Shown in pieces: positions 12,649-38,817 of a stretch of DNA of 40,214 nucleotides. Origin of the DNA: Rubrivivax sp. (lineage in GTDB: Bacteria > Pseudomonadota > Gammaproteobacteria > Burkholderiales > Burkholderiaceae_C); assembly GCA_030693565.1 (NCBI GenBank), contig JAUYAJ010000620.1, forward strand, positions 1 to 40,214, in the 5' to 3' direction. A program made the position numbers and the translations under genes. The notes below the pieces were generated by a model, which was given only the letters and a program-made list of their open reading frames with translations, searched no databases and was not told where the DNA came from. Each line of letters begins with the position of its first letter. The first letter of the stretch is position 1.

Positions 12649-13257
12649 ATGAACATCAAAACGGCATTGCAAGTCTTGGCGTTGCGAATAGTTCTCAAGA
12701 TGTTCACATGGCTCCAAAGTTCTGCAGTGAGAAACTTGCCTGTGATCGAGGCGTCATTGGGATTCGACGGTGTAGTACGGTTGTTGGAGCACACTGAAGG
12801 GAGTCAAGCGGTGCAGCTCTTGCGTGACGAGGGTGCTGTGATAATGGGTGGCGTGCGTATTCTGCGCAACCTGACGATTCATAACGCTGATCTTGATTTT
12901 AGAAATTTGCGCATCGGTGAGAACTGCCATATTGGCCGCCAGGTATTTCTAGATCTTGCAAATTCCATTGATATCGGAGATCGAGTTACGATATCAATGC
13001 GAACGACGATTTTGACGCATACTGATATTGGCGATAGCAGGTGCGGCTTGCCGAGAGTCGATGCGAAGGTGACGATTGGTGACGACGTATATATTGGCGC
13101 TGGGGCCATGTTGCTTCCAGGTGTGAACTTGGGTCCGGGCTCGATCGTCGCCGCCGGTGCGGTTGTGACGCGGGACGTTGCTCCAGGAGTTGTCGTCGCA
13201 GGATCACCGGCGCGACCACTGACGAGCGCGGATGGTCAACCATGGAACTGGCGCTAA
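12649..13257 (+). CDS. Left-handed beta-helix (hexapeptide repeat) acyl/acetyltransferase
   Basis: Hexapeptide repeats VTIGDDVYIGAGAMLLPGVNLGPGSIVAAGAVVTRDVAPGVVVAGSPARPL; the upstream part of the ORF (12436-12648) looks non-coding, so ATG 12649 is preferred. Confidence 0.8.
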   Translation: MNIKTALQVLALRIVLKMFTWLQSSAVRNLPVIEASLGFDGVVRLLEHTEGSQAVQLLRDEGAVIMGGVRILRNLTIHNADLDFRNLRIGENCHIGRQVFLDLANSIDIGDRVTISMRTTILTHTDIGDSRCGLPRVDAKVTIGDDVYIGAGAMLLPGVNLGPGSIVAAGAVVTRDVAPGVVVAGSPARPLTSADGQPWNWR

Positions 13258-14268: not shown

Positions 14269-14280
14269 CGGGGGAATGCG

Positions 14281-15003: not shown

Positions 15004-16178
15004 TGAACTGGCAAGTTCCGTTGTTCGATCCTGACCTGGGCCCCGAAGAGGAGCAGGCGGTGATCGATGTGATCCGCTCGAAGTGGTTGACGATGGGCGA
15101 CCGCACCAAGGCCTTCGAGCGTGCCTTTGCGTCGGAAACTGGCGTGCCTGTGGCCCTGGCCTGCAACAGCGCCACCGCAGCGCTGCACATGGCGCTGGCG
15201 GCCCTGGACATTGGCCCTGGCGACGACGTGATCGTGCCATCGCTGACCTTCGTGGCCACCGCGAATGCGGTTCGGTACTGTGGCGCTCGCCCGGTCTTTG
15301 CGGACGTGGCATCAATCGATGACTGGAACGTCGACGCCGCATCGATCGAGCGGGTGCTGACGCCGGCCACCAAGGCGGTTGTCGTGGTGCACTACGCGGG
15401 TTATGCCTGCGACATGCCGGGCATCATGGCGCTGGCAGCCCGCCGTGGATTGCTGGTGGTTGAGGACGTTGCCCATGCGCCCTGCGCCAGCCTGGACGGC
15501 GTTGCGCTGGGTGCTTGGGGCGATGTGGGCTGTTTCAGCTTCTTTTCCAACAAGAACATGACCACGGCCGAGGGCGGCATGGTCACGACACGGCGGCCCG
15601 AACTGGCCGAAAGGCTGGGTTGGTTGCGCTCACATGGCATGACGACCCTGACACTCGACCGGCACAAGGGGCACGCCTTTGGCTATGACGTGGTGGCCCT
15701 GGGCTTCAACTACCGCATGAGCGAACTGAATGCGGCGCTGGGGTTGGTGCAATTGCGGCGTGTTCGCGAACGCAATGCGCTCCGAGGCGAACTGGTGTCG
15801 GCCTATCGGCAGCGGCTTGCTCAGGTGCCTGGACTGGGACTGCCCTTTGCCGCTCATCGTGGCGAGGCGGCTTTCCACCTCATGCCGGTGTTGCTTCCGC
15901 CCGGAGTACGCCGGTTCGATGTGATGACAGCCATGCGCGAGGCGGGAGTGCAGACCAGCATCCACTACCGGCCGGTGGACACCTTCACGGCGTATGTGCA
16001 AGCCGGGTTAGGCCCGTCAACCGAGGTTCCACTGTCGCATCTGATCGGCGAGCGCGTGGTCACATTGCCTCTGTATCCCAGTATGCGCATTGAACAGGTT
16101 GACCTTGTGTGCGCGGCGCTTCAGAAAGCCGTGCAGGGCGCTGCAAAGGCGCACGAGTCGCCAGCGACTGACGCATGA
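15000..16178 (+). CDS. DegT/DnrJ/EryC1/StrS-family PLP sugar aminotransferase
   Basis: LACNSATAALHMALAAL, VVEDVAHAPCASLDG, GCFSFFSNKNMTTAEGGMV (PLP Lys), GFNYRMSELNAALG. Confidence 0.92.
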   Translation: MMNWQVPLFDPDLGPEEEQAVIDVIRSKWLTMGDRTKAFERAFASETGVPVALACNSATAALHMALAALDIGPGDDVIVPSLTFVATANAVRYCGARPVFADVASIDDWNVDAASIERVLTPATKAVVVVHYAGYACDMPGIMALAARRGLLVVEDVAHAPCASLDGVALGAWGDVGCFSFFSNKNMTTAEGGMVTTRRPELAERLGWLRSHGMTTLTLDRHKGHAFGYDVVALGFNYRMSELNAALGLVQLRRVRERNALRGELVSAYRQRLAQVPGLGLPFAAHRGEAAFHLMPVLLPPGVRRFDVMTAMREAGVQTSIHYRPVDTFTAYVQAGLGPSTEVPLSHLIGERVVTLPLYPSMRIEQVDLVCAALQKAVQGAAKAHESPATDA

Positions 16179-21641: not shown

Positions 21642-23309
21642 TCAATGCAATTCGTAGTTGGGCGCATGTGCCCGCAGCCACTGTTCCAGCATCATCAGAA
21701 TCCACACCATCTCGCCGTAATACCCTGGATGGGCCGGCAGGTGTTCGTCGACCAGCCGGGTGATGAAGGAGCGCTGGACGATGCCGCGGTCGGCCAGCGT
21801 GTGCAGCGAGTCGGTCGCCAGCGCCTTCAGCGCTGCGTCCCGGGTCGCCCAGACGCCGAAGGGCAGGCCAAAGCCCTGCTTCTTCTTGGTCAGGATGGCG
21901 TCGGGCAGAAAGCCGCGCAGTGCCTCCTTGAAGAACCAGCGCAGTTGCTGGCCCTTGAGCTTGTAGCCGGTGGGCAGACGCATCGAGAAGTCGACCACCG
22001 CCTGCTCCAGCATCGGAAAACCGACCGCGATGCCGGCCAGCGCCGTGGTGCCACGCACCTTGGGCAGATCGGTTTCGGCCAGCGTGTAGCGCCAGTCGAA
22101 GGCGAGGTGGCGGTTGACGCTGCTGGCTGCCGTCGCGCTGTCCCACACCGCTTGCTGCTGCTGGCCCGGACCGCTGCGGTCGACCTGGGACAGAAAGCCC
22201 GGCGTCAGCACGGTCTGGACGCCGAGTCGCTCGAGCAGGTTGTAGACGTCCATCCGGCCCGGCATCGGGCGCCGCGCCTGGTCGACATAGCTGGCGGCCT
22301 TGCGCAGCAGCGCCGTCGGGCGTTCGCCCGGTGCGCCCAGCCAGGGCTCGAGCACCGCGCTGCGCAAGGCGGCAGGCAGGTGAGCGTACAGATCGAAGAC
22401 GCGCTGCTTGGCGTAGCGCAGGTTGCCGCCAAAGAGTTCATCGCCACCATCGCCGGCCAGGATGCGGGTGACGCCGTCGTCGCGGGCCATCATCGCGCAG
22501 TAGTAGGCGGGCAACGCCGACGAGTTGCCAAAGGGCTGGTCGTAGCTGGCCGCCACCGCGGGGATGCTGGCGACCAGGTCGGCCGGCGTCACGTAATACT
22601 CGTGGTGCTCGGTGCCGAAGTGGCGGGCGGCCAGGCGCGCGAATTCCATCTCGTCGTAACCCTCGGCCTCAAAGCCGATCGAGTAGGTCGCGGCCGGCCG
22701 CCCGGCGGCCAGGCCGATCATGCCGGCAATGGTCGAGCTGTCGGTGCCGCCACTGAGAAAACAGCCCGGTTTGCCGCCGTCGAGCTGCGCCGCCACGGCG
22801 GCTTGCAGATGGCCGCGGAACTCGTCGCGCAAGCTGTCGAAATGCGGCCTAAGGGCTTCGTCGAACTGGGTTTGCCAGTAGGGCTTGGCGACCGGTTTGC
22901 CGGCTTGCACGCTGAGGCAGTGGCCGGGCGGCAGGCGCTGAACGTCCTTGAAGATCGTCCGCGGCGATGGGATGGCGTGGAAGAACAGGTAGTCGTAGAT
23001 GGCTTGTGGATCAAGCTTGGGGTCCGGCCCGGCCAGTTCGTCGGCGCGTTCGGCAAAGCGCACCTGGCCGTTTTCGAGCCGCCAGCACATCGTCTGCATG
23101 GCGAAGCGGTCCACCGCCAGCATCGGGTTGCCGGCGCCGTCGAGCAGACCAACGGCGAAGTCACCTTGGGTGTTGCGCGCGGCTTGTTCGATGCCGGCGC
23201 TGGCCGCTTGCTGCCAGGCGGCTGCCACCGACGTGGCCGCCAGCTCGGCCAGCGCAGGCTCGGCGAAGCGGGGCGAACCGCGCGTCAGTACGGGACTCTG
23301 GGCACTCAT
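21642..23309 (-). CDS. Asparagine synthase-like protein lacking the Cys2 glutaminase nucleophile
   Basis: FLSGGTDSSTIAGMIGL PP-loop, ILAGDGGDELFGGNLRYAKQRVFD; no MCG N-terminus in any plausible start. Confidence 0.85.
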   Translation of the reverse strand: MSAQSPVLTRGSPRFAEPALAELAATSVAAAWQQAASAGIEQAARNTQGDFAVGLLDGAGNPMLAVDRFAMQTMCWRLENGQVRFAERADELAGPDPKLDPQAIYDYLFFHAIPSPRTIFKDVQRLPPGHCLSVQAGKPVAKPYWQTQFDEALRPHFDSLRDEFRGHLQAAVAAQLDGGKPGCFLSGGTDSSTIAGMIGLAAGRPAATYSIGFEAEGYDEMEFARLAARHFGTEHHEYYVTPADLVASIPAVAASYDQPFGNSSALPAYYCAMMARDDGVTRILAGDGGDELFGGNLRYAKQRVFDLYAHLPAALRSAVLEPWLGAPGERPTALLRKAASYVDQARRPMPGRMDVYNLLERLGVQTVLTPGFLSQVDRSGPGQQQQAVWDSATAASSVNRHLAFDWRYTLAETDLPKVRGTTALAGIAVGFPMLEQAVVDFSMRLPTGYKLKGQQLRWFFKEALRGFLPDAILTKKKQGFGLPFGVWATRDAALKALATDSLHTLADRGIVQRSFITRLVDEHLPAHPGYYGEMVWILMMLEQWLRAHAPNYELH

Positions 23310-23337
23310 GGGGCAGGCTGCGTCTTTCATCGAAGGG

Positions 23338-24510
23338 TCAGCGCCGCGCGGCGTCGAGCGGCGCAAAGGCGCCTGGGCTGGCCGGGCCGTCGCGGCGCGG
23401 GCGTGTTGTCCGCGGATGGAGGTATTCGCGCTCGGGCTGTAGCGCCAGTCCGCGCGCGTCCAGGTCGGCAGCGCTGCGGCCGATCAGCGGCGACGTTGCG
23501 CGCAGCCGGTAGGGGCCACCGGCGCCGCTGACCAGGTCGGCCGCGGTCGCCTGATGGTTCTCGCGGTACTCGCCGGGCCCGGCGGCCAGCATCAGGTCGG
23601 CGGCGCCGCCGACGCCCAGGTTGTTCATCGCCAGCACGCGCCCGGCACCGGGGCTGACACGCACGGCGACGCCGCCCGCGGGCCGCTCGTCGACGAAGGT
23701 GTTGTTGACCAGGTAGAGCTCATTGACCGGCCAGCCATAGCCTTCGACGCCATAGGACAGCATGTGCGGATTGCTCGTGGTCGCAGCCTGGCGGATCAGG
23801 TTGCCGACCACGATGGCGACGCCGCCCGAAGGGAATTCGAGCTCGTAGCTGGAACGGCCGTCGGCGCCATCGGCCAGCAGGTTGTAGCGCACGACATTGC
23901 GTGCCGCGCGGCTCTTGATCAGGTGACCCTGGTTGGCGTTGTGGAACCAGCTGCCCTGCACGCGCAGGCTGGCGATCGAGCCGACATAGAGGTTGTGGCT
24001 CATGCCGTCACCATGGCCGTTGTGGCCGAACTCGCTGTTCTCGATGTCGAGCACGGCCTGGCCGTCGTTGCCGGTGAGGATGCCGTTCTCGTTGCCACCG
24101 AAGGCACAGTCGCGCACGGTGAGCGTGCCCGACTCGAAGCGGATGCCGGCGCCGTTGCGGCTGGCGACGCGGGCGCCGACGAAGTCGAAGCCTTCGACCT
24201 GCAGCCGCGAGCGGCGCACGACCCAGATCGCCTTGGCTTCGGCGGCCGCGCCATCGGCCTGCAGGCGCACGCGCCCGCCGACGGCTTTGAGGCTGACGTC
24301 GGCGTCGCTCCACACCGCGACGTCGCCGGCGTAGACACCGGCGTCGACTTCGATCAGCGTCGCGCCTTGCGCGCGCCGCGCCGCTTCGGCGATGGTCTTG
24401 ATCTCGCGCTCGGGGCCGACCTGCAGGCGCGCTGGCGCGGCGCTGGTCGCCGAGGCGCTGAGCAGCAAGCTGCCGGCGAGGGCGAGCAGCAGTCGGCGCC
24501 AGGCGGTCAT
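23338..24510 (-). CDS. Secreted right-handed parallel beta-helix (pectate-lyase-like) protein
   Basis: Signal peptide, then beta-helix repeats: GIRFESGTLTVRDCAFGGNENGILTGN...NSEFGHNGHGDGMSHNLYVGSIASLRVQGSWFHNANQGHLIKSRA. Confidence 0.82.
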   Translation of the reverse strand: MTAWRRLLLALAGSLLLSASATSAAPARLQVGPEREIKTIAEAARRAQGATLIEVDAGVYAGDVAVWSDADVSLKAVGGRVRLQADGAAAEAKAIWVVRRSRLQVEGFDFVGARVASRNGAGIRFESGTLTVRDCAFGGNENGILTGNDGQAVLDIENSEFGHNGHGDGMSHNLYVGSIASLRVQGSWFHNANQGHLIKSRAARNVVRYNLLADGADGRSSYELEFPSGGVAIVVGNLIRQAATTSNPHMLSYGVEGYGWPVNELYLVNNTFVDERPAGGVAVRVSPGAGRVLAMNNLGVGGAADLMLAAGPGEYRENHQATAADLVSGAGGPYRLRATSPLIGRSAADLDARGLALQPEREYLHPRTTRPRRDGPASPGAFAPLDAARR

Positions 24511-25803: not shown

Positions 25804-26508
25804 TCACGGCTTTGGTGGTGCGGTGTTTGCCGCAACCCCGGGCGAAGGCGCGGCCGGCAGCTCGACCCATTTGCCCTGTGCCTTCAGACGCTCGCGCAAC
25901 TCGGTGCGCGGCATGCCCAGGCGGGCCGCGGCGTGGGCTTGCTTCAAGGCCTTGTCGAATTCCTGCAGGTCGAAGTAGGCGAGGCCGGCGTTGTAATGCG
26001 TGAACGCGTTGTCGGCCTTGGCGGCCACGTGGTCGAGCTGAGCCAGGGCATCGGCCTTGCGCCCGGTGCGGCCCAGGTGGCCGGCGTAGATCATGCGGAC
26101 GACGAGGTCGTCCTGGGCGAAGCGCATCGCGCGGTCGAAGTAACAGTCGACGGTGTAGCTGGCGTCGGGGGGTGTGGGGTTCTTCAGCCGCTCGCTCCAG
26201 CGAGCCATCGTGATCAAGGCCCGGTGGTGGTTGGGCGAGGCACGCAGCGTGTAGTCCATGTCACCCCCGAAGTGCCGCGCTATTGGCTTGATCAAGCCTT
26301 CGACCAGCGGTGTGAAGTGATGCTGATCGACGCGCTGGATCTCGATGCTGTCCTTGTAGACGCGGTAGTCGTAAGGACCGTAGGCATTGACCAGCGATCC
26401 ACATTCGACGGTCGAGATCTGGGCCGCGGCAAGGGTGGGCAAGCCGAGCCAGGCGCCGCACAGCAGGCCGGCCGCAAACCGGCGCAAGAGGTTGGCTGAC
26501 ACGCTCAT
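25804..26508 (-). CDS. Exported TPR-like protein of unknown function
   Basis: Signal peptide MSVSANLLRRFAAGLLCGAWLGLPTLAAAQ, TPR-like helices (NAFTHYNAGLAYFDLQEFDKALKQAHAAARLG), conserved-looking DYTLRASPNHHRAL. Confidence 0.7.
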   Translation of the reverse strand: MSVSANLLRRFAAGLLCGAWLGLPTLAAAQISTVECGSLVNAYGPYDYRVYKDSIEIQRVDQHHFTPLVEGLIKPIARHFGGDMDYTLRASPNHHRALITMARWSERLKNPTPPDASYTVDCYFDRAMRFAQDDLVVRMIYAGHLGRTGRKADALAQLDHVAAKADNAFTHYNAGLAYFDLQEFDKALKQAHAAARLGMPRTELRERLKAQGKWVELPAAPSPGVAANTAPPKP

Positions 26509-27404
26509 GGTCTTTGCTCCGGGGCCGGACTGGCGGCTTGTGCTGCAGGTGCGAATCGCTGTTGCAGCCATCGCAGGACATCAGCCTCCAGCGTCAGCCG
26601 GTGTGTCGACTGCGACAGCGTGTGGTCGGCGCCTGGCAGCTCGATCCGCGTCAGCCCCGGTCGCTGCAGCGCAGCGCGCCAGGCGGCACTGCTCGCAGCC
26701 ACGTCGGCGAACTCGCGTGCCGTGTAATCGTCGCCACTCAATGCCAGCAGAATCGCTCCAGGGTACATCGTCCAGGCCTTTGCCATCGCGCCGCGGAAGT
26801 CACCCGCGGCGGAGGGTGCGGCCGGCGCGGACTGTTCTGCGCGCATGCGACTCAGGTTTTGCGTCAATTCGCGCCAGGCTTTGAGCGCGATACCGCCGCT
26901 GAGCAGCTTGCGCCAGAAGTCCGGCTGCCGCAGCCGGTCCAGATAATAGTGCTTGACATGGGTGCGGGCCAGACTGGCTTCGGAGCGCAGCCAGGGGTTC
27001 AGCAGGCACAGGCCGGCGACCCGGGCTTGGGGGCGCGCGCCCACATGCAGCAAGGCCGCCGAAGCGCCATCGCACAAGCCCCAGAGCACGACCTGGCGCA
27101 GGCCTGGCAGCGCAGCCATGCAGGCGCCGATGGCGGCTTCGATGTCGTCGTCGACGCGCTCGAAGTCGCGCGCGCCGCCGCCGCTGTCGCCCATGCCGCG
27201 GTAGTCGAAGCGCAGCACCGGCCAGCCTTCGGCGGCCAGCCGCCGTGCCAGCAGCGTGAACTGGCGGTGGCTGCCGGCGCGGTACTGCGGGCCGCCGACG
27301 ACGACGATGACAGCGGTGTCGCGTGCGGCCTGGGGCGCGGTCAGGATGCCCACGAGCGACTCGCCCTGGCATTCGAAGCACAGCACTCGCTCGGTGACGG
27401 TCAT
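26505..27404 (-). CDS. Exosortase A system-associated hydrolase 1 (TIGR03100-like alpha/beta hydrolase)
   Basis: VVVGGPQYRAGSHRQFTLLARRLA, LRFDYRGMGDSGG, nucleophile elbow LWGLCDGASAAL, PGADHTLS. Confidence 0.87.
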   Translation of the reverse strand: MTVTERVLCFECQGESLVGILTAPQAARDTAVIVVVGGPQYRAGSHRQFTLLARRLAAEGWPVLRFDYRGMGDSGGGARDFERVDDDIEAAIGACMAALPGLRQVVLWGLCDGASAALLHVGARPQARVAGLCLLNPWLRSEASLARTHVKHYYLDRLRQPDFWRKLLSGGIALKAWRELTQNLSRMRAEQSAPAAPSAAGDFRGAMAKAWTMYPGAILLALSGDDYTAREFADVAASSAAWRAALQRPGLTRIELPGADHTLSQSTHRLTLEADVLRWLQQRFAPAAQAASPAPEQRP

Positions 27405-28228
27405 GTCGGAAAGGCGTTGCACACGGCGTCTACAGAGGCTTGCAGCAGCGCTGGCGCTTCTTCGATCTCGGTGGTCTGCCAAAAGGCCGGGCCTGCCACG
27501 GCCAGGCTGCTGACCTGGAAGCCAGCTGGCTGCCAAAGGGCGGGCGCTGCCTCGGCCGCTGGTGACAGGGCCGGCGGCTGGCGGTTCGTGACCTCGATCC
27601 AGAGCAGCTTGGCCGCGGTGCCGCCAGGCGGTGGCTGCAGCGTGGCCGCTTCCAGGCCACTGGCCAGCGCGGGATGGAGTGTGTAGCCAGCGATTTCGGG
27701 GGCGTCGCCGCTGCGCAGTGCCTGGCGCAAGGCCTCGGTGACGCCTTTTGCAGATCCTGCCTCGAGTTGGCCAGCCATCTTCAGACGCAAGAACTGTTGC
27801 AGCAAGACCTTGCCGCTGGCCGGCGGCTGCCAGAACAGGAAGTGGCTAGGCGACTCAAGGCGCCGTGCTGCCTCGGTGGCCAGCAGGCAACCGGCGCGCA
27901 GACCCCAGAGCAGCAGCGGCGCGGCGTGGTGCTGGCGCAGCCAGGCCGCGGCTGCGATCAAGTCGTCGATCCAGCCGGCCCAGGTGGCGTCACCGAAGTC
28001 GCCGCTGCTGTCGCCGCAGCCGTGCAGATCGATTTGCAGCACGGCGCAGCCGGCGTCAGCCAGCTGGCGCGACTGCAGGGCAGCCATGCGCCGCGACTTG
28101 TTCATCTCCTCGGCAAACGGGTGCACGTAGAGCACGGCGGCGCGCACGGCGCCGCGCGGCGGATGGTGGATGCACAAACGCTGGCCACCGCCGACAGCCA
28201 GAAAGAAGGCCTCGAAGGGCGGTGTCAC
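27401..28228 (-). CDS. Exosortase A system-associated hydrolase 2 (TIGR03101-like alpha/beta hydrolase)
   Basis: LYVHPFAEEMNKSRRMAALQSRQLADAGCAVLQIDLHGCGDSSGDF, LLLWGLRAGCLL; ATGA overlap with hydrolase 1. Confidence 0.87.
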   Translation of the reverse strand: MTPPFEAFFLAVGGGQRLCIHHPPRGAVRAAVLYVHPFAEEMNKSRRMAALQSRQLADAGCAVLQIDLHGCGDSSGDFGDATWAGWIDDLIAAAAWLRQHHAAPLLLWGLRAGCLLATEAARRLESPSHFLFWQPPASGKVLLQQFLRLKMAGQLEAGSAKGVTEALRQALRSGDAPEIAGYTLHPALASGLEAATLQPPPGGTAAKLLWIEVTNRQPPALSPAAEAAPALWQPAGFQVSSLAVAGPAFWQTTEIEEAPALLQASVDAVCNAFPT

Positions 28229-28232
28229 CGCG

Positions 28233-28484
28233 TCACGCGGCAGCCTTGCTGGCGACGAAGTCCACCAGCGAACCCACGGTCTCGAAGGTGCCGCCGTCGA
28301 TGTCGTCGTCGTCGACGGCGATGCCGAAGCGGTCTTCCAGCGCGGTGATCAGCGACACCACGGCCATCGAGTCGAGCTCCGGGATCGCCCCCAGCAAGTG
28401 GCTGTCGCGGGTCAGTGCGGCGCTGCGCCCTTTGAGGCTGAGCACCTCGTCGAGGACGGCTAGCACTTCGCGATCGATGTTCAT
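28233..28484 (-). CDS. Acyl carrier protein (ACP1), XrtA-associated
   Basis: MNIDREVLAVLDEVLSLKG...LLGAIPELDSMAVVSLITALEDRFGI; 4'-phosphopantetheine motif LDSM. Confidence 0.88.
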   Translation of the reverse strand: MNIDREVLAVLDEVLSLKGRSAALTRDSHLLGAIPELDSMAVVSLITALEDRFGIAVDDDDIDGGTFETVGSLVDFVASKAAA

Positions 28485-28693: not shown

Positions 28694-30289
28694 ATGCCCG
28701 AATCCCATCTGCTGCACGAATTGATCGCGGTCTCCAGCGATCGAGCCGGCGCCTCCCTGGCGTTGACCCATGGCCAGGCGTCGCTGAGCTACGAAGGCTT
28801 GCAGCAGGCGGTGACGGCCTGCGCCGCCGGCTTGCTCGGCCTTGGGCTGCAGCGCGCCGAGCGCGTCGGCATCTACCTCGAAAAGCGCTTCGAGACTGTG
28901 ATCGCCAGCTTCGGCGCCCCGGCCACCGGCGCGGTCTTCGTGCCGATGAACCCCTTGCTCAAGCCCGAGCAGGTGGCTTTCATCGCCCAGGATTGTGATG
29001 TGCGGGTGCTCGTCACCTCGCCCGAGCGGCTGGCCCTGCTGGCGCCGGTGCTGGCTGAGTGCAAGGCGTTGCGCCATGTCGTCGTCACCGAGATGCCGGC
29101 GCAGCCGCCCGCGCTGCCTGCCGGTGTCGGCCTGGTGCGCTGGGCGGAGCTGCTGGCCGCAGCGCCGCGCGCCGGCCACCGTGTCGTCGACACCGACATG
29201 GTGGCGATCCTCTATACCTCGGGCAGCACCGGCCGCCCCAAGGGCGTGGTGCTGTCGCACCGCAACATGGTGGCCGGCGCCAAGAGCGTGGCCTCGTACC
29301 TGCAGAACCATGCCGGCGACACCTTGCTGGCGGCGCTGCCGCTGTCTTTTGATGCCGGCTTCAGCCAGCTGACCACCGCCTTCCACGCCGGTGCGCGCGC
29401 CGTGCTGCTGAACTACCTGATGCCGCGCGACGTGCTCAAGGCGATGGCGCGCGAGCGCGTCACCGGGTTGACCGCGGTGCCGCCGCTGTACATCCAGCTC
29501 GCCGGCCTCGAATGGCCGGCGGCCATTGGCGAGCACCTGCGCTACTTCGCCAATACCGGCGGGCACATGCCGCGCGAAACCCTGGGCTTGCTGCGCCAGC
29601 GGGTGCCGGCGGCCCGGCCCTTCCTGATGTATGGGCTGACCGAAGCCTTTCGCTCGACCTACCTGCCGCCCGACGAGGTCGACCGCCGGCCCGACTCGAT
29701 CGGCAAGGCGATCCCGAACGCCGAGATCCTGGTGCTGCGCGACGACGGCAGCGAGTGCGCCGCGGGCGAGCCGGGCGAACTGGTGCACCGCGGCGCCCTG
29801 GTCGGCATGGGTTACTGGAACGATGGCGAGAAGACCGCCGAGCGCTACAAGCTGCTGCCGGGCCGCGACAGCGGGCTGCAGCTGCCGGAGTACGCGGTGT
29901 TCTCGGGCGACACCGTGCGCCGCGACGACGAGGGCTTCCTGTACTTCATCGGTCGCCGCGACGAGATGATGAAGACCTCGGGCTACCGCGTCAGTCCGAC
30001 CGAGGTCGAAGAGGTGCTTTATGCGACGCGGCTGGTCGGCGAATGTGTCGCCTTTGGTGTCGATCACCCGACGCTGGGCCAGGCCATCCAGGTCATCGCC
30101 AGCGCGCCCGACGGCAGCGCGGCGGTCGACGTCGACGCCTTGCTGGCCCAGTGCCGCATCCACATGCCGGCCTACATGCTGCCCGCCGGCATCGAGCCGA
30201 TGGCCGGGCCACTGCCGCGCAACCCGAACGGCAAGATCGACCGCAAGCTGCTGAGCGCTGGTTGGGTGGAGCGGCAGCAACAAGCCTGA
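28694..30289 (+). CDS. AMP-forming acyl-CoA/ACP ligase 1, XrtA-associated (TIGR03098-like)
   Basis: ILYTSGSTGRPKGVVLSH P-loop, YGLTEAFRSTYLPPDE, SGDTVRRDDEGFLYFIGRRDEMMKTSGYRVSPTEVEE, RNPNGKIDRKLL. Confidence 0.9.
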   Translation: MPESHLLHELIAVSSDRAGASLALTHGQASLSYEGLQQAVTACAAGLLGLGLQRAERVGIYLEKRFETVIASFGAPATGAVFVPMNPLLKPEQVAFIAQDCDVRVLVTSPERLALLAPVLAECKALRHVVVTEMPAQPPALPAGVGLVRWAELLAAAPRAGHRVVDTDMVAILYTSGSTGRPKGVVLSHRNMVAGAKSVASYLQNHAGDTLLAALPLSFDAGFSQLTTAFHAGARAVLLNYLMPRDVLKAMARERVTGLTAVPPLYIQLAGLEWPAAIGEHLRYFANTGGHMPRETLGLLRQRVPAARPFLMYGLTEAFRSTYLPPDEVDRRPDSIGKAIPNAEILVLRDDGSECAAGEPGELVHRGALVGMGYWNDGEKTAERYKLLPGRDSGLQLPEYAVFSGDTVRRDDEGFLYFIGRRDEMMKTSGYRVSPTEVEEVLYATRLVGECVAFGVDHPTLGQAIQVIASAPDGSAAVDVDALLAQCRIHMPAYMLPAGIEPMAGPLPRNPNGKIDRKLLSAGWVERQQQA

Positions 30290-30460: not shown

Positions 30461-31234
30461 ATGTTGCGCAGGGTCCTCGGCCCGTTCAAGGAGTTCGGCC
30501 TCGTCGCCGGTGTGCTCTACCTGATCGACCGCATGCTGCGCAGCGTGTCGCCGCGTCTGGGCCTGTTCGTCTACGAACTGATGGTGCAGCCGATCGCCAG
30601 CAAGCCGATGCTGCCGGCCAACCTGACCAAGAACCTGCGCTTTGCCGAGATCGGCCGCGGCGACCCCGAACTGGCGCTGATGCCGGCCCGCGAAGACATC
30701 AAGGCGGCGCGATTCGACCAGGGCGCGCGCTGCCTGGGTACCTACCGCAAAGACAAGCTGATCGGCTACATCTGGTTCAGCTTCGGCCACCACGAAGAAG
30801 ACGAAGTGCGCTGCGACTACGAGCTGACGGCGCGTGAGCAGTCAGTGTTCGACTTCGACCTCTACGTGCTGCCCGAGCACCGCATGGGCATCGCCTTCAT
30901 GGCGATCTGGCATGGTGCCAACGAGTACCTGCACCAGCGCGGCATCCGCTACACCTTCAGCCGGCTGACGCGCTTCAACCTGGCGTCGCGGCGCTCGCAC
31001 GCCCACCTGGGCTGGCGCCGCGTCGGGCAAGCGGTCTTCCTGCAAGCCTGGGCCGTCGAGCTCATGCTGGCCGACATCCACCCCTATGTGGCGCTGACCT
31101 GGTCGCCGACGCAGCGCACACGTTTGCGCCTGGCGCCTGATGCGTTGCTGGCGACCGCGCCGGCCCCTGGCCAGGCGGCCCGGCCGCCCACCAGATCCGC
31201 TGGCGAGCAACCCGAACCGAAAGCCGGACCATGA
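30461..31234 (+). CDS. GNAT-family N-acyltransferase
   Basis: GTYRKDKLIGYIWFSFG, FDFDLYVLPEHRMGIAFMAIWHGANEYLHQRGIRYTFSRLTRFNLASRRSHAHLGWRRVGQAVFL; alternative start at 30425. Confidence 0.75.
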   Translation: MLRRVLGPFKEFGLVAGVLYLIDRMLRSVSPRLGLFVYELMVQPIASKPMLPANLTKNLRFAEIGRGDPELALMPAREDIKAARFDQGARCLGTYRKDKLIGYIWFSFGHHEEDEVRCDYELTAREQSVFDFDLYVLPEHRMGIAFMAIWHGANEYLHQRGIRYTFSRLTRFNLASRRSHAHLGWRRVGQAVFLQAWAVELMLADIHPYVALTWSPTQRTRLRLAPDALLATAPAPGQAARPPTRSAGEQPEPKAGP

Positions 31235-31479
31235 GCACCGACATCGACATCCTTGCCGAATACATCCGCAGCGAGACCGGCCACACCGGCCCGCTGGACC
31301 CCGACGACGACTTGCTGGCGGCGGGTGTGCTCGACTCCTTCAACATCGTCTCGCTGGCGATGTTTGCGCAGGAACGCTTCGGCGTCGAGTTCGAGGCCGA
31401 AGACCTGATGCGCGACAACCTGGCCAAGCTTTCCAGCCTGGCGGCGCTGATCGCAGCGCGGCGCGACGCCAGCGCCTGA
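31231..31479 (+). CDS. Acyl carrier protein (ACP2)
   Basis: DDDLLAAGVLDSFNIVSLAMFAQERFGVEFEAEDL; LDSF phosphopantetheine site; ATGA-coupled to the GNAT gene. Confidence 0.88.
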   Translation: MSTDIDILAEYIRSETGHTGPLDPDDDLLAAGVLDSFNIVSLAMFAQERFGVEFEAEDLMRDNLAKLSSLAALIAARRDASA

Positions 31480-31547
31480 GGCACTCGCCGCCAACAGGCC
31501 GCAGCCGCGCGGCCGCACAAGCCCAACGAATTCAAGGAAGACCGAAG

Positions 31548-33143
31548 ATGCCCGCATCGATTCCACGCTACCTGGCCGAGACCGCGCAGCGGCTGCCCGA
31601 CAAGGTGGCGATCGTCTCCGCCGCGCGCTCCATCACCTTTGGCGAGCTCTATCGCGAAGCGGTGGCAACGGCCGAATGCCTGCGCGAGATCGGCCTGAGC
31701 AGCGGCGACCGCATCGGCATCTGCATGGAGAAATCGGTCGACCAGGTGCTGGCCATCCTGGGCGTGCTGTTCGCCAACGGTGTCGTCGTGCCCATCCTGC
31801 CGCGGCTCAAGGGGCCGAACATCCGCCACATCATCGAGAACTCGGGCATGGCGGCGATGATCACCGACAGCGAGCGCCTCACCGAGGTGACCGAGTTCGA
31901 AGGCCTGACCCGGCTCATTACCGGCCATGGCGAGATCAGCCAGGCCTGGCCCAACCTGCCTTACTTGCGGCGCTTCATCCAGCCGCGCAACTTTTTCGAC
32001 CGCATCGGCAACGACAACGCGGCCATCATCTATTCGTCGGGCTCGACCGGTCGCCCCAAGGGCATCCTGATCGCGCAGCGCAACCTGGCCGAGGGTGCCG
32101 ACATCGTCGCTGAATACCTGGGCACGCGCGAAGACGACCGCATCGGTTGCATGCTGTCGTTCAACTTCGACTACGGCATGAACCAGATCTGGCAGACCAT
32201 CCGCCAGGGCTGCACGCTGGTGTTGCACGACCTGGCGCTGCCCAACGACTTGTTCTCGATGATGGCCAAGCAGCGCATCACCGCGCTGCCGGTGATGCCG
32301 GTGTTCATCACCAAGATGTTCGACCGCCGCCTGAAGGTCAACACCGCGGCCTTCGACTTCTCGGCGCTGCGCTATGTCTGCTCGACCGGTGGCCGGCTGT
32401 CGGCCGACATGATCGCCGACCTGCGCGGCGCCTTCCCGGGCGTCAAGGTCTACTCGATGTTCGGCCTCACCGAAGCCTTCCGCTCGACCTATCTGCCGCC
32501 TGACAAGCTCGACACCCACCCGACCTCGGTCGGCCGCGCCATTCCCGACTGCCAGGTGATGGTGCTCGACGAGCAAGGCGAGGAATGCGCGCCCAAGGTC
32601 GTCGGCGAACTCGTGCATCGCGGCACCACCGTCACCAAGGGCTACTGGAACGATCCGGTGAACACCGCCAAGTCGTTCCGCAGCCACCCGCGCTTTCCCG
32701 GCGAGACGCTGGTCTTCAGCGGCGACAAGGTCTACCGCGACGAAGAAGGCTTTCTGTACTTCGTCGCCCGTGCCGACGACATGATCAAGACCAAGGGCTT
32801 CCGCGTCAGCCCGACCGAGGTCGAGACCGAGGTCGTGCGCCACGCCGACATCGTCGACGCCGTGGCCTTCGCGGTGCCCAACATCAGCGTCGGCGAAGAC
32901 GTCGCCTGCGCCTACACCACGGTGGACGGTCAGCCGCTGGCCGAGCCCGTGCTGCGCCAGTTCCTCAAGTCCAACCTGCCCAACCACATGGTGCCGGCGC
33001 TGCTGGTGCACTTCGACGCCTTCCCGATCCTGGGCAACGCCGGCAAGCTCGACCGCAAAGGCATCAAGCAAGCGGCCTGTGAGCGCCTGGGCGTGGTGCC
33101 GGGGGCTGCCGAAACGCCGCCGCCCGGCCTGCGCAGCGCCTGA
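31548..33143 (+). CDS. AMP-forming acyl/aminoacyl-ACP ligase 2
   Basis: IIYSSGSTGRPKGILIAQ, YSMFGLTEAFRSTYLPPDK, FSGDKVYRDEEGFLYFVARADDMIKTKGFRVSPTEVE, LGNAGKLDRKGIK. Confidence 0.9.
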   Translation: MPASIPRYLAETAQRLPDKVAIVSAARSITFGELYREAVATAECLREIGLSSGDRIGICMEKSVDQVLAILGVLFANGVVVPILPRLKGPNIRHIIENSGMAAMITDSERLTEVTEFEGLTRLITGHGEISQAWPNLPYLRRFIQPRNFFDRIGNDNAAIIYSSGSTGRPKGILIAQRNLAEGADIVAEYLGTREDDRIGCMLSFNFDYGMNQIWQTIRQGCTLVLHDLALPNDLFSMMAKQRITALPVMPVFITKMFDRRLKVNTAAFDFSALRYVCSTGGRLSADMIADLRGAFPGVKVYSMFGLTEAFRSTYLPPDKLDTHPTSVGRAIPDCQVMVLDEQGEECAPKVVGELVHRGTTVTKGYWNDPVNTAKSFRSHPRFPGETLVFSGDKVYRDEEGFLYFVARADDMIKTKGFRVSPTEVETEVVRHADIVDAVAFAVPNISVGEDVACAYTTVDGQPLAEPVLRQFLKSNLPNHMVPALLVHFDAFPILGNAGKLDRKGIKQAACERLGVVPGAAETPPPGLRSA

Positions 33144-33154
33144 CGCCCGCCACC

Positions 33155-33592
33155 ATGCCGAACCCCCCCACGCAGCGGCCCCGCATCGTCATCGGCGTGA
33201 TCGGCGACGACATCCATGTCGTCGGCAACCGCATCATGCAGCTGGCGCTGGAAGAGTCGGGCTGCCAGGTCTTCAATTTGCGCACCCGCAACCGCCCCGA
33301 GCATTTCTGCCAGGCCGCGCTCGAGGTCAACGCCCACGCCGTCTTCGTTTCCTCGCTCAACGGCGAGGGTGAATACTGGTGCGCCGACTTCCGCCAGCGC
33401 CTGCAGGCGATGGGGCTGGGCCATGTGCTGCTCTATGTGGGCGGCAACGTCGTCGTCGGCAACCGGCCCGAGCCCGAAGTGGTGGCGCTGTTCAAAGGTT
33501 ACGGCTTCGACCGCGTCTACCACCAGCGGCCCGACATCGGCGCCGCCATCGTCGACCTTTTCCAGGATCTCGAGCATGGCACGCCCCAGTGA
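33155..33592 (+). CDS. glmS: Methylaspartate (glutamate) mutase, cobalamin-binding S/sigma subunit
   Basis: IVIGVIGDDIHVVGNRIMQLALEESGCQVFNL: B12-binding DxHxxG motif; YVGGNVVVG; small stand-alone B12-binding domain next to the E and L genes. Confidence 0.87.
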   Translation: MPNPPTQRPRIVIGVIGDDIHVVGNRIMQLALEESGCQVFNLRTRNRPEHFCQAALEVNAHAVFVSSLNGEGEYWCADFRQRLQAMGLGHVLLYVGGNVVVGNRPEPEVVALFKGYGFDRVYHQRPDIGAAIVDLFQDLEHGTPQ

Positions 33593-34982
33593 CAAAGCGC
33601 GGCTGACCGACATCGAGCGCCAGCGCCGCCAGGTCTTGTCGCACCCGCTGGCGCGCGGTCTGGCGCCGGCCGAGGTCGCCGGCTTTCTGCAGCAACTGCC
33701 GCGCCGGCGCTTCCCCAGCGTGGTCTACGCTGAACGCGGCCCGGTGCCGCTGATCCAGCCGCGCGGCGGCGTGCCGCTGTTCGACGACCAGCTGCGCCTG
33801 ACGCAGGCGCTCGACGCCGCCGGCGCCGACTTCATCCCGCTGACCATCGACAGCTGCACCCGCCACAACCAGTACGACACCGCGGCGCAGCTGCTGCGGC
33901 GCAGCGAGGAAGAGGGTCGCAGCCTGCTCAACGGCTACCCGCTGGTGTGCCATGGCCACGAACTCACGCGCCAGCTCTACACCGGCCTGGACAAGCCGGT
34001 GAGCCTGCGCCACGGCACGCCCGACGCGCGCTTGCTGATCGAGGTGGCGATTGCCTCGGGCATCGTCGAGATCGAAGGTGGCGGGCTGTGCTACTGCCTG
34101 CCTTATTCCGAAGGCTTTCCGCTCGACCGCGCCTTGCTGCACTGGCAGTACGTCGACCGCGTCTGCGCGCTGTATTCGACGCCTGAGCGGCCGATTCACC
34201 GCGAGAGCTTCGGCCCGCTGAGCGCCACCTTGGTGCCGCCGGCGATCGCCATCGGGATCGAGATCATCGAGGCCTTGCTCGCCGCCGAACAAGGCGTGCT
34301 GTCGTTCGCGGTCAGCTTCGGCCAGACCGGCTCCTTCATCCAGGACGTTGCCACCGCGCGTGTGCTGCGCAAGCTGGCGCGCGAATACGTCGACGAGTTC
34401 GGCTTCGGCGCGATGCAGCTGCGCCTGGTCTATCACCAGTGGATGGGCCAGTTCCCGATGCAGCGCGAGCGCGCCGCGGCATTGATTGCTGGTTCCGCGC
34501 TGGTGGCCGGTGTCATCGGCGCCGACAAGATCGTCGTCAAGACCGTCGACGAGGCGCTGGGCGTGCCGCGCGCCGAGGTCAACGCCGAGGCCGTCGACAT
34601 GGTGCGCTACGTGCTGCGCAGCTTTGCGGCGCCCGAAACCGTCGACTCGCCAGCCATCGCGCTGGAAGCCGCGCTGATCGAATCCGAGGTGCGCAGCATC
34701 CTTGGCGCCATCTTCGCCCTCTCGGGCGAGGCCTTCTGGGAAAGCGTCTACCGCGGCTTCCAGCTCGGTTACCTCGACCTGCCGTTTTCGCCGCATGCCG
34801 ACAACGCCAACCGGTTGGTCTCGGTGCGCGACGTCAACGGCTCGATCCGCATCGCCGACCCCGGTGGCGTGCCGATCTCGGCCGCCGACGCCGCCACCGA
34901 ACGCCAGCTGCTGGAAAGCCGCACCCAGCGCGGCGAGAAGACCTACCAGCAGATGCTCGCCGACATCACGCTGATGGTGTGA
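33576..34982 (+). CDS. glmE: Methylaspartate (glutamate) mutase, catalytic E/epsilon subunit
   Basis: VPLIQPRGGVPLFDDQLRLTQALDAAGADFIPLTIDSCTRHNQYDTA, VSLRHGTPDARLLIEVA, SFGQTGSFIQDVATARVLRKLA, PVxHQWMGQFP-like YHQWMGQFP; overlaps glmS. Confidence 0.9.
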   Translation: MARPSDKARLTDIERQRRQVLSHPLARGLAPAEVAGFLQQLPRRRFPSVVYAERGPVPLIQPRGGVPLFDDQLRLTQALDAAGADFIPLTIDSCTRHNQYDTAAQLLRRSEEEGRSLLNGYPLVCHGHELTRQLYTGLDKPVSLRHGTPDARLLIEVAIASGIVEIEGGGLCYCLPYSEGFPLDRALLHWQYVDRVCALYSTPERPIHRESFGPLSATLVPPAIAIGIEIIEALLAAEQGVLSFAVSFGQTGSFIQDVATARVLRKLAREYVDEFGFGAMQLRLVYHQWMGQFPMQRERAAALIAGSALVAGVIGADKIVVKTVDEALGVPRAEVNAEAVDMVRYVLRSFAAPETVDSPAIALEAALIESEVRSILGAIFALSGEAFWESVYRGFQLGYLDLPFSPHADNANRLVSVRDVNGSIRIADPGGVPISAADAATERQLLESRTQRGEKTYQQMLADITLMV

Positions 34983-34996
34983 GGACCGCCCGGACC

Positions 34997-36274
34997 ATGG
35001 ATCGAATTTCCCCCACCGCCGCGGTCGCGCCGCCCGCGCGCATCGCTCTGGACATCGGCTCGACCGTGGTCAAGATCGCACGCGTCGGCAGCGACGGCCA
35101 GCTTGAGTCGCAGCAGTTCTTTCCGCGCGACTTCGAAGCCGGCGTCGCCGGCCAGCTCGGCAGCCTGCTGGCCGAACTGGGCATAGACCCCGAGCTCGAA
35201 CCCATCCTGGCCTGTTCGTCGGCCAACGGCGGCCTGCGCGTGGGCATCGTCTGCCTGAGTCAGCACTTCAGCGGCGCCGCGCTGCGCAACCAGGTGCTGC
35301 TGGCTGGCGCCAACCCGGTGTTCGTCCACGACCTCGACGAGGCCCAGGGCGATGCACGCCGGGTCGACATCCTGCTCGTCGGCGGCGGCATCGACAACGA
35401 CGACGCAGCGCCAGCGGCGCTGCGCCTGCAAAGCTTCGACCCCACGCGCTACGGCTATGCGGCGCTGGTCTACGCCGGCAACCGCCATCTGGCGGCGGCC
35501 TTTGCCCAGCGCTTCCCGCAGGCGGTGGTGATCGCCAACCCGCTTGGCGAAACCTTGTCCGACCGCGTCGGCAGCGTCTTCGAGTGCGTGCGCCGCGCCT
35601 ATCTGGACGACCTGGTGCTGAAGGAAGGCGTCTCAGAGCTGCCGCCGTCGATCGCCCGCAGCATCCGGCCCACGCCCGAGGTGGCGAGCCGGGGCTTTCT
35701 GCGCTCGGTGATGAACCAGTCCAGCTTCGCTATCGTCGGCGCCTGCATCGCGCTGGACATCGGCGGCGCCACCACCGACCTGCACTACACGGTGGAAGTG
35801 GTCGCCGACGACAGCCCGGAGCGGCCGTCCAGCGGCGTCTCGGTGGCGCGCTACGTGTTCACCGACCTGGGCATCGTCGCCTCGCGTGACACCTTGCTGA
35901 TGCAGTTGCGCAGCCATCCGCAGCTTTACGAGTTCCTGTGCGCCGTGCACGGCGCCAGCGTGCGCGAGCTTTACGCCGCGCTGCGCGAAGGTGACCACGA
36001 ACCGTCTGCCGAGCTGCTGTCCTACGCTTGTCTGTTCCTGGCGCTGGACCGTTTCAGCACGGGCCGCGGGCCGGGGCTGCCGGTGGCGCAACTCGACCGC
36101 GTGGCGCAGATCATCCTCACCGGGGGCGCGGCCCAGGTGCTCGACGAAGCCGTCGTCGGTCGCATCACCGCGTTGCGGCTGGCACCGACGACACCGGCGC
36201 CGCTGGTGCAGATCGACCGCCGCTACGAGATCTGGGTCGCCGGCATCACCTGGACCGAGGACTTGCAGCCATGA
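34997..36274 (+). CDS. glmL: Glutamate mutase L (MutL/GlmL), actin-like ATPase accessory/reactivation protein
   Basis: IALDIGSTVVKIARV and CIALDIGGATTDLHYTVE phosphate motifs, DILLVGGGIDNDD, FTDLGIVASRDTLL, IILTGGAAQVLDEAV. Confidence 0.88.
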   Translation: MDRISPTAAVAPPARIALDIGSTVVKIARVGSDGQLESQQFFPRDFEAGVAGQLGSLLAELGIDPELEPILACSSANGGLRVGIVCLSQHFSGAALRNQVLLAGANPVFVHDLDEAQGDARRVDILLVGGGIDNDDAAPAALRLQSFDPTRYGYAALVYAGNRHLAAAFAQRFPQAVVIANPLGETLSDRVGSVFECVRRAYLDDLVLKEGVSELPPSIARSIRPTPEVASRGFLRSVMNQSSFAIVGACIALDIGGATTDLHYTVEVVADDSPERPSSGVSVARYVFTDLGIVASRDTLLMQLRSHPQLYEFLCAVHGASVRELYAALREGDHEPSAELLSYACLFLALDRFSTGRGPGLPVAQLDRVAQIILTGGAAQVLDEAVVGRITALRLAPTTPAPLVQIDRRYEIWVAGITWTEDLQP

Positions 36275-37521
36275 AGGCCATCGACTGGATGGGCATGGCG
36301 CCCGCTGAGTGGCAAGCCTTGGCCGCCGCGCACGCGACGCCGTTCTATCTCTTCGACGCCGACCATGTGCGCCAGCGCATCGAGGCCGTGCGCGACGCGC
36401 TGCAAGGCCAGGCCCAGGTCTATTACGCTGTCAAGGCCAACCCCAACCTGGGCTTGCTGCGCGCCGTGCAAACGGTGGCCGATGGCGCCGACATCTCGTC
36501 GGCGGGCGAACTGGTGCAGGCGCAGCTGGCCGGCTTCGACGCCGCGCGCATGAGTTTTGCCGGTCCGGCCAAGACGGTGGGCGAACTGGAAGCGGCGATA
36601 AGCGCCGGCGTCGGCGCCATCAGCGTCGAGTCGCTGCGTGAGATCGACGACTGCGCGCGCATCGCCACCCGGCTGGGGCAGCGTGCGCGCATCCTGGTGC
36701 GTGTCAACCCGCTGCTCGCCAACCGCGCCTACGGCTTGAAGATGGGCGGCCGCGCAGTGCAGTTCGGCATCGAGGAAGACGCCTTGCCGGCGGCCGAGGC
36801 ACGCATCCAGGCCCAAGCCGCGGCGCTCGACTTTCGCGGCATCCATGCCTATGTCGGCAGCCAGTGCTTCGACCCAGCCGGGATCGTCGACGCCACCGCC
36901 AACGCACTGAGGATCGCGCGCGAAATCGAGCAGCGCAGCGGCCTGCGCTGCGCCAAGATCAATCTGGGCGGCGGCTTCGGCGTCGCCCATGCCGAGCAGC
37001 GGCGCGAACTCGACCTGCAGGCGCTGGCCGCGCCGCTGGTGGCGGTGCTGGCGGCGCATCGCCAGGCCGCACCCGACTGCGAGCTGATCTTCGAGCTGGG
37101 CCGCTACCTGAGTGCCGAGGCCGGCATCTACGTCACCCGTGTCATCAGCGGCAAGGTGTCGCGCGGCAAGGCCTTCGTTGCCTGCGACGGCGGCCTGAAC
37201 CAGCACCTGGCGGCCGCCGGCACCTTTGGCGCTGCGCTGCGCGGCAACTTCCCGCTGCGCAATCTGTCGCGCCCGGATGCGCCGCCCGTGGTCTGCCAGA
37301 TCGCCGGGCCTTCGTGCAACCCGACCGACTTGCTCGGCGTCGACGCCAGCGTCGGCGAGCCGCTGGAAGGCGACCTGCTCGGGGTGCTGATGTCGGGCAG
37401 TTACGGGCTCACTGCCAGCCCGGTGCTGTTCCTGGGCCGGCCGACGCCGGTCGAGCTGGTGCGCTGCGACGGCGCCATCACCGTCGGCCGGCGCAGCCAC
37501 CCGATGACCGACTTCAACTAG
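36271..37521 (+). CDS. PLP-dependent fold-III decarboxylase 1 (DAPDC/ODC superfamily, BtrK/VinO-like)
   Basis: QVYYAVKANPNLGLLRAV (PLP Lys), ADISSAGEL, KINLGGGFGV, ELGRYLSAEAGIYVTRV, GPSCNPTDLLG; ATGA-coupled to glmL. Confidence 0.88.
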   Translation: MKAIDWMGMAPAEWQALAAAHATPFYLFDADHVRQRIEAVRDALQGQAQVYYAVKANPNLGLLRAVQTVADGADISSAGELVQAQLAGFDAARMSFAGPAKTVGELEAAISAGVGAISVESLREIDDCARIATRLGQRARILVRVNPLLANRAYGLKMGGRAVQFGIEEDALPAAEARIQAQAAALDFRGIHAYVGSQCFDPAGIVDATANALRIAREIEQRSGLRCAKINLGGGFGVAHAEQRRELDLQALAAPLVAVLAAHRQAAPDCELIFELGRYLSAEAGIYVTRVISGKVSRGKAFVACDGGLNQHLAAAGTFGAALRGNFPLRNLSRPDAPPVVCQIAGPSCNPTDLLGVDASVGEPLEGDLLGVLMSGSYGLTASPVLFLGRPTPVELVRCDGAITVGRRSHPMTDFN

Positions 37522-37563: not shown

Positions 37564-38817
37564 ATGAACGACACCCCAGCGGCCCGCGCGGCGCCCGTCC
37601 ACGCCCCGATGTCCCAGTTCGGCGAAGCCGGCGCCGAGCTCGTCGTCGGCGGCATGCCGCTGTCCAGGCTGGCGGCAAAGGTCGGCAGCACGCCTTTCTA
37701 TGCCTATGACCGCGGCCTGCTGCGTGCGCGCGTCGCCGAGTTGCGCGCCGCCTTGCCGCCCGCTGTCAAGCTGCACTACGCAATGAAGGCCAACCCGATG
37801 CCGGCCGTGGTCGGTTGGATGGCCGGCCTGGTCGACGGTGTCGACGTCGCCTCGGCGGGCGAACTGAAAGTGGCGCTGGACGCCGGCGCCGACCCGGCCG
37901 AAGTCAGTTTCGCCGGCCCCGGCAAGCGCGACGCCGAGTTGCGCCAGGCGGTGGCCGCCGGCGTGCTGGTCAACGTCGAGTCGGCGCGTGAACTGGCGCC
38001 GCTGGCCGCGGCCTCGCAGGCCTTCGGCGTGCCGGCGCGGGTGGCGCTGCGCGTCAACCCCGATTTCGAGCTCAAAGGCTCGGGCATGAAGATGGGCGGC
38101 GGGCCCAAGCAGTTCGGCGTCGACGTCGAGCTGGTGCCGGCCTTGCTGGCCGAGCTGGCGCGGCTGGGCCTGGCCTTCGAAGGCTTCCACCTCTTCGCCG
38201 GCTCGCAGAACCTGCGCGCCGAATCGATCTGCGAAGCGCAGCAGAAGTCTTTCGCGCTGGCGCTGCGGCTGGCCGAATACGCGCCTTCACCGGTGCGTTT
38301 TCTCAACCTCGGCGGCGGCTTCGGCATCCCCTATTTCCCGGGCGAACAGCGGCTCGATCTGGCGCCCATCGGTGCCAACCTGGCCGAGCTGGTGGCGCGC
38401 GCGCGCAGCGAGCTGCCGGCGACGTCTCTGGTCATCGAGCTGGGCCGCTACCTGGTCGGCGAAGCCGGCGTCTACGTCACCCGCATCGTCGACCGCAAGG
38501 TCTCGCGCGGCCAGGTCTTCCTGGTCACCGACGGCGGCCTCAACCACCACCTGGCGGCCTCGGGCAACTTCGGCCAGGTGGTGCGCAAGAACTACCCGGT
38601 CACCGTGGTGCCGCAAGGCCGCCGCAGCGACGCCGTCGAGATCGCCTCGGTGGTCGGCCCGCTGTGCACGCCGCTGGACCTGCTGGCCGACCGCATGGCC
38701 TTGCCGGCGGCCGAGATCGGCGACCTGGCGGTTGTCTTCCAGTCGGGCGCCTACGGCGCCAGTGCCAGCCCGCAGGCCTTTCTGGGCCACGCGCCCTGCG
38801 CCGAAGTGCTGGTCTGA
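37564..38817 (+). CDS. PLP-dependent decarboxylase 2, exosortase A system-associated (TIGR03099-like)
   Basis: KLHYAMKANPMPAVVGWM, VDVASAGELKVAL, FLNLGGGFGIPYFPGEQRLDL, ELGRYLVGEAGVYVTRI, GPLCTPLDLLADRM. Confidence 0.9.
   Translation: MNDTPAARAAPVHAPMSQFGEAGAELVVGGMPLSRLAAKVGSTPFYAYDRGLLRARVAELRAALPPAVKLHYAMKANPMPAVVGWMAGLVDGVDVASAGELKVALDAGADPAEVSFAGPGKRDAELRQAVAAGVLVNVESARELAPLAAASQAFGVPARVALRVNPDFELKGSGMKMGGGPKQFGVDVELVPALLAELARLGLAFEGFHLFAGSQNLRAESICEAQQKSFALALRLAEYAPSPVRFLNLGGGFGIPYFPGEQRLDLAPIGANLAELVARARSELPATSLVIELGRYLVGEAGVYVTRIVDRKVSRGQVFLVTDGGLNHHLAASGNFGQVVRKNYPVTVVPQGRRSDAVEIASVVGPLCTPLDLLADRMALPAAEIGDLAVVFQSGAYGASASPQAFLGHAPCAEVLV

Follow-up and report, generated by a model that had tools for sequence, protein, structure and literature searches.

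A seven-gene cassette at positions 30461–37521 of the 40,214-base Rubrivivax sp. window analysed here, which is one whole contig from a draft assembly of 4.38 Mb with 76% completeness, is hosted by an exosortase A (XrtA) locus and combines a glutamate mutase with a ligase, a decarboxylase, an acyl carrier protein (ACP2) and a GNAT-fold acyltransferase. On balance, we lean modestly towards the view that the seven genes constitute one co-inherited pathway, which would add a 3-aminoisobutyryl group to an amine of a polysaccharide, or of its precursor, via ACP2 and the GNAT. In the proposed scheme, the mutase subunits GlmS and GlmE would isomerise L-glutamate to (2S,3S)-3-methylaspartate, with a MutL-like protein keeping the mutase active. 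Ligase 2 would then adenylate the side-chain carboxylate of 3-methylaspartate and load it onto ACP2, and decarboxylase 1 would strip off the alpha-carboxylate on the carrier to give 3-aminoisobutyryl-ACP2. Finally, the GNAT would pass the 3-aminoisobutyryl group on; the free amine that receives it would most likely be that of an amino sugar in the XrtA-locus polysaccharide or its precursor.

All seven genes are intact, lie on the plus strand and have no internal stops. The first encodes the GNAT-fold acyltransferase (30461–31234; PF00583, 27.1 bits against a cut-off of 20.7), whose assignment is also based on an AlphaFold model and Foldseek, and whose orthologues are found in every cassette contig that reaches the GNAT position. 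It is followed by ACP2 (31231–31479; PF00550), with a phosphopantetheine serine in a DSF motif whose Asp-Ser is invariant in nine sequences, and by AMP-forming ligase 2, the proposed 3-methylaspartate:ACP2 ligase (31548–33143; PF00501), which scores 494.7 bits with TIGR03098, below the cut-off of 592. Next come the B12-binding mutase subunit GlmS (33155–33592; NF002612, 148.5 bits against a cut-off of 110; 1i9c/1ccw family) and the catalytic subunit GlmE (33576–34982; TIGR01503, 402.5 against 390; PF06368, 425 bits). The proposed mutase reactivator, a MutL/GlmL-like ATPase (34997–36274), matches PF13941 with 93 bits and the GlmL profile NF040745 with 77 bits, below the cut-off of 475. The last gene encodes a fold-III pyridoxal phosphate (PLP) enzyme, decarboxylase 1 (36271–37521; PF02784/PF00278; TIGR03099, 400.7, below the cut-off of 478), which is BtrK-like and is the proposed 3-methylaspartyl-ACP2 decarboxylase. 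An earlier note on this DNA had described seven packed, co-directional genes of these families with junctions at 31231, 33576 and 36271; open frames, profile searches and the junctions all bear this out, the first and third junctions being ATGA overlaps and the second a 17-base overlap of GlmS and GlmE. The predicted identities of the cassette enzymes are thus well supported.

The block is not due to chance, because the same order recurs syntenically in eight other loci (L002–L009), found by a scan for close GlmE relatives. Six of these contigs (L003–L007 and L009, mostly from Burkholderiales) span the whole cassette and have the identical seven-gene order. The two others are partial: L008, from a planctomycete bin, has the first six genes and ends ahead of the decarboxylase, and L002, from a Rhodoferax bin, begins within ligase 2 and has the last five. 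The cassette is a conserved seven-gene unit that is kept across distantly related bacteria. L007 was assigned to a Gracilibacteria bin, perhaps through mis-binning of the contig. Two Rhodoferax contigs were considered as one joined cassette and this was dropped, the shared ligase segment being merely 90% identical. In the trees, the cassette GlmE sequences form one clade of nine rows (100/100); identity to the window copy is 63–83% for members of this clade and 31–40% outside it. Ligase 2 and decarboxylase 1 (eight rows each) likewise form their own clades (each 100/100), and the cassette-type GNATs form a single clade (100/99). The cassette is rare: it occurs in three of 400 sampled genomes of the family, the window's own included; an order-wide sample adds two genomes, judged by size and coordinates to be those of L005 and L006, and a phylum-wide sample of 399 genomes yielded no further one. 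Among 72,556 plasmids, the GlmE relatives found were all below 60% identical and in different surroundings, and the GNAT had no match.

The proposed tie of the cassette to XrtA genomes also stands: XrtA scores above its cut-off in six of the eight other cassette genomes, the planctomycete bin having lower-scoring exosortases only and the Gracilibacteria bin no exosortase. The distance between cassette and XrtA is roughly 13–42 kb in L006, L009 and L004, and in a Rhodoferax bin the unit adjoins the gene for XrtA-associated hydrolase 2. One carrier is Aquincola tertiaricarbonis strain MIMtkpLc11, of a species that includes a floc-forming strain with working genetics (PMC9850573).

The mutase step has a strong footing. 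Compared with Clostridium cochlearium GlmE (6h9e/1ccw), the window's GlmE conserves R66, R100, R149, H150, E171, Y177, Y181, K326 and E330, which we take to be the catalytic residues of the clostridial enzyme, and GlmS carries DIHVVG, a form of the B12-binding motif DxHxxG, while scoring above the NF002612 cut-off and below the stricter TIGR01501 one (120 vs 135.8). Furthermore, a PduO-type cobalamin adenosyltransferase is present in nine of nine genomes tested. Conversion of glutamate to 3-methylaspartate by the mutase is strongly supported as a prediction. GlmS, GlmE and MutL are also the core of glutamate fermentation, as in the comparator L035 with its GlmS-GlmE-ammonia-lyase arrangement, so that a catabolic mutase might be located in the locus by accident. 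This is a highly improbable account. No methylaspartate ammonia-lyase gene was found in the window's genome (76% complete), in agreement with the earlier note, nor in any of the eight further genomes with the cassette, by a search that did detect the lyase beside GlmE in a catabolic locus of genome G1134; on this ground a catabolic role was rejected. The cassette's mutase genes moreover have a fixed association with genes for an ACP, a ligase, a decarboxylase and a GNAT, and their GlmE clade is separate.

Other settings of the mutase were also seen. L073 (G1132:C1:66000-85000, 5841–10400), from a genome of the same class that is positive for XrtA, has a GlmS-GlmE-MutL-ligase operon with a GlmE that is 44–46% identical; no ACP or decarboxylase was found nearby. 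In L030 and L032, both Streptomyces plasmids, GlmS and GlmE adjoin aspartate kinase, aspartate-semialdehyde dehydrogenase and an oxygenase, neighbours that suggest another use of 3-methylaspartate.

For the second step, loading of an amino acid onto ACP2 by ligase 2 is supported by the enzyme's family and neighbourhood, and the substrate would be 3-methylaspartate. In VinN, the features for taking 3-methylaspartate via its side chain are D230, a bulky F231, S299 and a loop that is one residue shorter and contains K330 and R331 (PMC11253843). Across eight orthologues of ligase 2, D208, Y209 and R312 are invariant and T280 is kept, and its TEAFR loop aligns one residue short against the first linear-gramicidin synthase domain. 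By motif rather than by alignment to VinN, D208 would correspond to D230, Y209 to F231, T280 to S299, and the short loop with its Arg to that of VinN. The tyrosine lies in an FDYG motif that reads FDAG, with Ala in place of Tyr, in ligase 1, the XrtA-associated ligase of the same locus (38% identity). A 131-residue segment used to look for VinN gave no match among PDB sequences at 1e-8, VinN was not among the alignments listed for ligase 2, and VinN-like enzymes did not stand out in a Foldseek search with the model of ligase 2 (pLDDT 78).

Decarboxylase 1 is of the BtrK type and not of the diaminopimelate (DAP) decarboxylase type. Its best solved relative in phmmer searches is BtrK (263 bits, against 161 for DAP decarboxylase), and it is 40% identical to decarboxylase 2 of the same locus, 38% to BtrK and 33% to a DAP decarboxylase, with the PLP lysine K55 and the catalytic cysteine C349 invariant. 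BtrK decarboxylates glutamate held on a carrier protein (PMC7857480). Decarboxylation to 3-aminoisobutyryl-ACP2 is accordingly predicted on family grounds, where it is supported, and it would probably take place while the substrate is on ACP2. Or 3-methylaspartyl itself may be delivered, with the decarboxylase serving another step or the other carrier. Such a route finds a parallel in L075 (G809:C1:630000-646000, 7702–12945), a surface-sugar locus of an organism judged from the sampling to be an alphaproteobacterium, where an ACP, an FDYG-type ligase, a PF02522 aminoglycoside-acetyltransferase-like enzyme, a methyltransferase, GlmS and GlmE occur together and no decarboxylase was seen within the stretch read. 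Judged by its genes, L075 brings a mutase, a ligase, a carrier and an N-acyltransferase together independently of the cassette. However, decarboxylase 1 follows MutL in every cassette contig that is long enough and its clade tracks the cassette, and we regard delivery of 3-methylaspartyl as unlikely.

The acyltransferase also links the cassette to the ordinary XrtA module. Its AlphaFold model (pLDDT 85) matches GNATs with a Foldseek probability of 1.00; the matches are many and none is close, and they include glucosamine and aminoglycoside N-acetyltransferases as well as MprF and PamZ-type enzymes. A profile search found homologues in 13 of 300 genomes of the family, the window's among them, and all 12 others are XrtA-positive, where 102 of 400 would be the base rate, a count in which genera repeat, so that independence is overstated. 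Hydrolase 2 is present in all 11 neighbourhoods read, and ligase 1, ACP1 and decarboxylase 2, the other canonical components, in 10 of the 11. Because its homologues sit near these genes, the GNAT can be counted as part of the carrier-protein module, in line with the earlier note. In XrtA loci without a mutase, the relatives adjoin the canonical ligase/decarboxylase pair, and the GNATs of these loci are the sister group of the cassette clade. We infer that its donor would be an acyl-ACP and its acceptor a sugar. A related observation is L065 (G576:C8, about 8068–8691 on the minus strand), where a GNAT homologue opens a 617-residue frame whose second part is ATP-grasp-like by eye.

An empty site is seen in G663, a genome of the same genus as the window. 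Its XrtA locus (L058, G663:C82, 3462–8851) has a cassette-type GNAT without the other six cassette genes, in the order TPR, hydrolase 1, hydrolase 2, ACP1, ligase 1, GNAT, nucleotide-sugar dehydrogenase, decarboxylase 2. Rubrivivax L004 has the block from ACP2 to decarboxylase 1, six genes in all, exactly between the equivalents of the G663 GNAT and nucleotide-sugar dehydrogenase genes. The simpler reading would be that G663 has lost this block, because its GNAT is nested among the cassette GNATs, next to that of L004 (99/97).

Several points weigh against the proposed pathway. The G663 GNAT, which has no mutase block beside it, may use another donor or be a relic, and acyl-CoA is the donor for most GNATs. 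As to the residues of ligase 2, a Shinella ligase that comes without a mutase has the Tyr as well; the loop Arg is common to 14 of 14 ligases compared and thus does not discriminate by itself; and the residue mapping is by motif. The placement of the cassette inside an exosortase A locus, claimed in the earlier note, holds for the window and not for L003 (Aquincola) and L005, in which the cassette and XrtA are on different contigs, though both genomes have XrtA. This separation, together with the MprF and PamZ-type enzymes among the GNAT fold matches, would suit an acceptor of the same acyl group other than the polysaccharide, whose amine might belong to a lipid, to a PEP-CTERM protein or to a small molecule. 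Such an acceptor is nevertheless unlikely: within the sampled family the GNAT relatives are confined to XrtA-positive genomes and to the vicinity of XrtA-module genes, amino-sugar enzymes are encoded in the window locus too, and mutase-free ACP-ligase-decarboxylase trios (L041, L043 and L044), carried by plasmids of Sinorhizobium, Aureimonas and Shinella, are surrounded by glycosyltransferase genes. A protein of about 230–290 residues upstream of these alphaproteobacterial trios has no Pfam match, and proteins beside the alphaproteobacterial ligases, tested as GNATs, likewise gave none.

By profile matches, the surroundings of the cassette are those of a typical exosortase A locus, in agreement with the context proposed in the earlier note. 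The C-terminal part of XrtA with an EpsI domain is encoded at 7–1146 (plus strand), truncated by the contig start (TIGR03109, 200.8 bits over the second half; TIGR02914; match 4–396), and the XrtA-context families comprise the amidotransferase TIGR03108, the glycosyltransferase TIGR03088, the O-ligase TIGR03097, the ligase TIGR03098, the decarboxylase TIGR03099 and the hydrolases TIGR03100 and TIGR03101. Upstream of the cassette, on the minus strand, are hydrolase 1 (26505–27404; TIGR03100, 320 vs cut-off 168.45), hydrolase 2 (27401–28228; TIGR03101, 285.6 vs 202.75) and the canonical ACP1 (28236–28484; ACP matches below cut-offs, Asp-Ser present). On the plus strand, the canonical ligase 1 (28694–30289; TIGR03098, 780 vs 592) and decarboxylase 2 (37564–38817; TIGR03099, 613.7 vs 478) are located on either side of it. 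A 4,6-dehydratase, a sugar nucleotidyltransferase and a PseC/LegC-like aminotransferase (13279–16178, plus strand; NCBIfam matches below equivalog cut-offs) are also encoded, and the dehydratase/aminotransferase pair could supply the amino-sugar acceptor. Two side observations concern these families: a second asparagine-synthase-like gene of the window (21642–23366, minus strand) reaches only 249 bits with TIGR03108, with an incomplete N-terminal match, and at L002:5660-7660 hydrolase 1 is fused with a FemAB-like PF13480 domain.

The XrtA-locus ligase, decarboxylase, ACP and hydrolase families have so far been named by association alone. Because the cassette encodes the enzyme that makes its substrate, the likely substrate can be narrowed to 3-methylaspartate, and this gives a handle on a possible role of the whole XrtA module, namely placing an amino-acyl group onto a surface sugar. 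Tentatively, in a judgement that is finely balanced and leans slightly to the doubtful side, surface polysaccharides of XrtA bacteria may bear amide-linked 3-aminoisobutyryl (or 3-methylaspartyl) groups that a B12 mutase makes from glutamate and a GNAT passes on from a carrier protein, a decoration chemistry not yet recorded, of which the ordinary XrtA ligase/ACP/decarboxylase set would make a simpler relative. If true, B12 glutamate mutase would extend from fermentation and antibiotics to surface-polymer assembly. A search of the literature, with subscription papers outside it, found nothing joining exosortase and glutamate mutase, or 3-methylaspartate, ACP and polysaccharide; glutamate mutase with exopolysaccharide gave only two papers, unrelated by title and abstract.

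Each part of the cassette can be compared with a known system. In the vicenistatin starter pathway (VinH, VinI, VinN, VinL and VinO), which makes 3-amino-2-methylpropionate, both mutase subunits, a stand-alone ligase, a stand-alone ACP and a PLP decarboxylase are clustered as in the cassette, and the pocket of ligase 2 may resemble that of VinN, as far as the motifs can be mapped. The vin, sce and pac clusters share this enzyme logic (PMC5785472; PMC10662134), so that the block might make a starter unit for a polyketide, a peptide or a signal, as in macrolactam clusters. This is quite improbable, because the annotated window genes include no polyketide or multidomain peptide synthase, and a GNAT and the XrtA link take the place of VinK and VinM. 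The predicted chemistry is much like that of the vicenistatin route; in contrast to it, the cassette adds MutL and the GNAT and sits in a Gram-negative exosortase/polysaccharide locus. It is not filed as a vicenistatin-type member because a scan of part of the window genes revealed no VinM, no VinK and no polyketide synthase. The butirosin side-chain pathway (BtrI, BtrJ and BtrK) similarly loads an amino acid onto an ACP for decarboxylation by a fold-III PLP enzyme, whereas it takes glutamate directly, without a mutase, and relies for transfer on BtrH, which does not belong to the GNATs. Methylaspartate glutamate fermentation shares GlmS, GlmE and the MutL/GlmL family, while the cassette has no ammonia-lyase and is linked to carrier-protein enzymes. 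A further comparison is the canonical XrtA set (TIGR03098, TIGR03099, TIGR03100 and TIGR03101 with an ACP), which has a homologous ligase and decarboxylase and, in some genomes, a related GNAT nearby; unlike the cassette it has no mutase, and the cassette ligase and decarboxylase, divergent relatives of the canonical pair by their scores, fall below the TIGR cut-offs. Judged by sequence, the cassette is a mutase-bearing second version, a paralogue, of the ACP1/ligase 1/decarboxylase 2 set. The earlier idea of an aminoacyl decoration pathway therefore stands as to enzyme identities and the conserved unit, and not as to a wholly new device, since ordinary XrtA loci hold this homologous set. Each enzyme step has a known precedent, while their joint occurrence within a sugar-coat locus has apparently not been described; what is new relative to the vicenistatin and butirosin chemistry is the genomic context and the GNAT.

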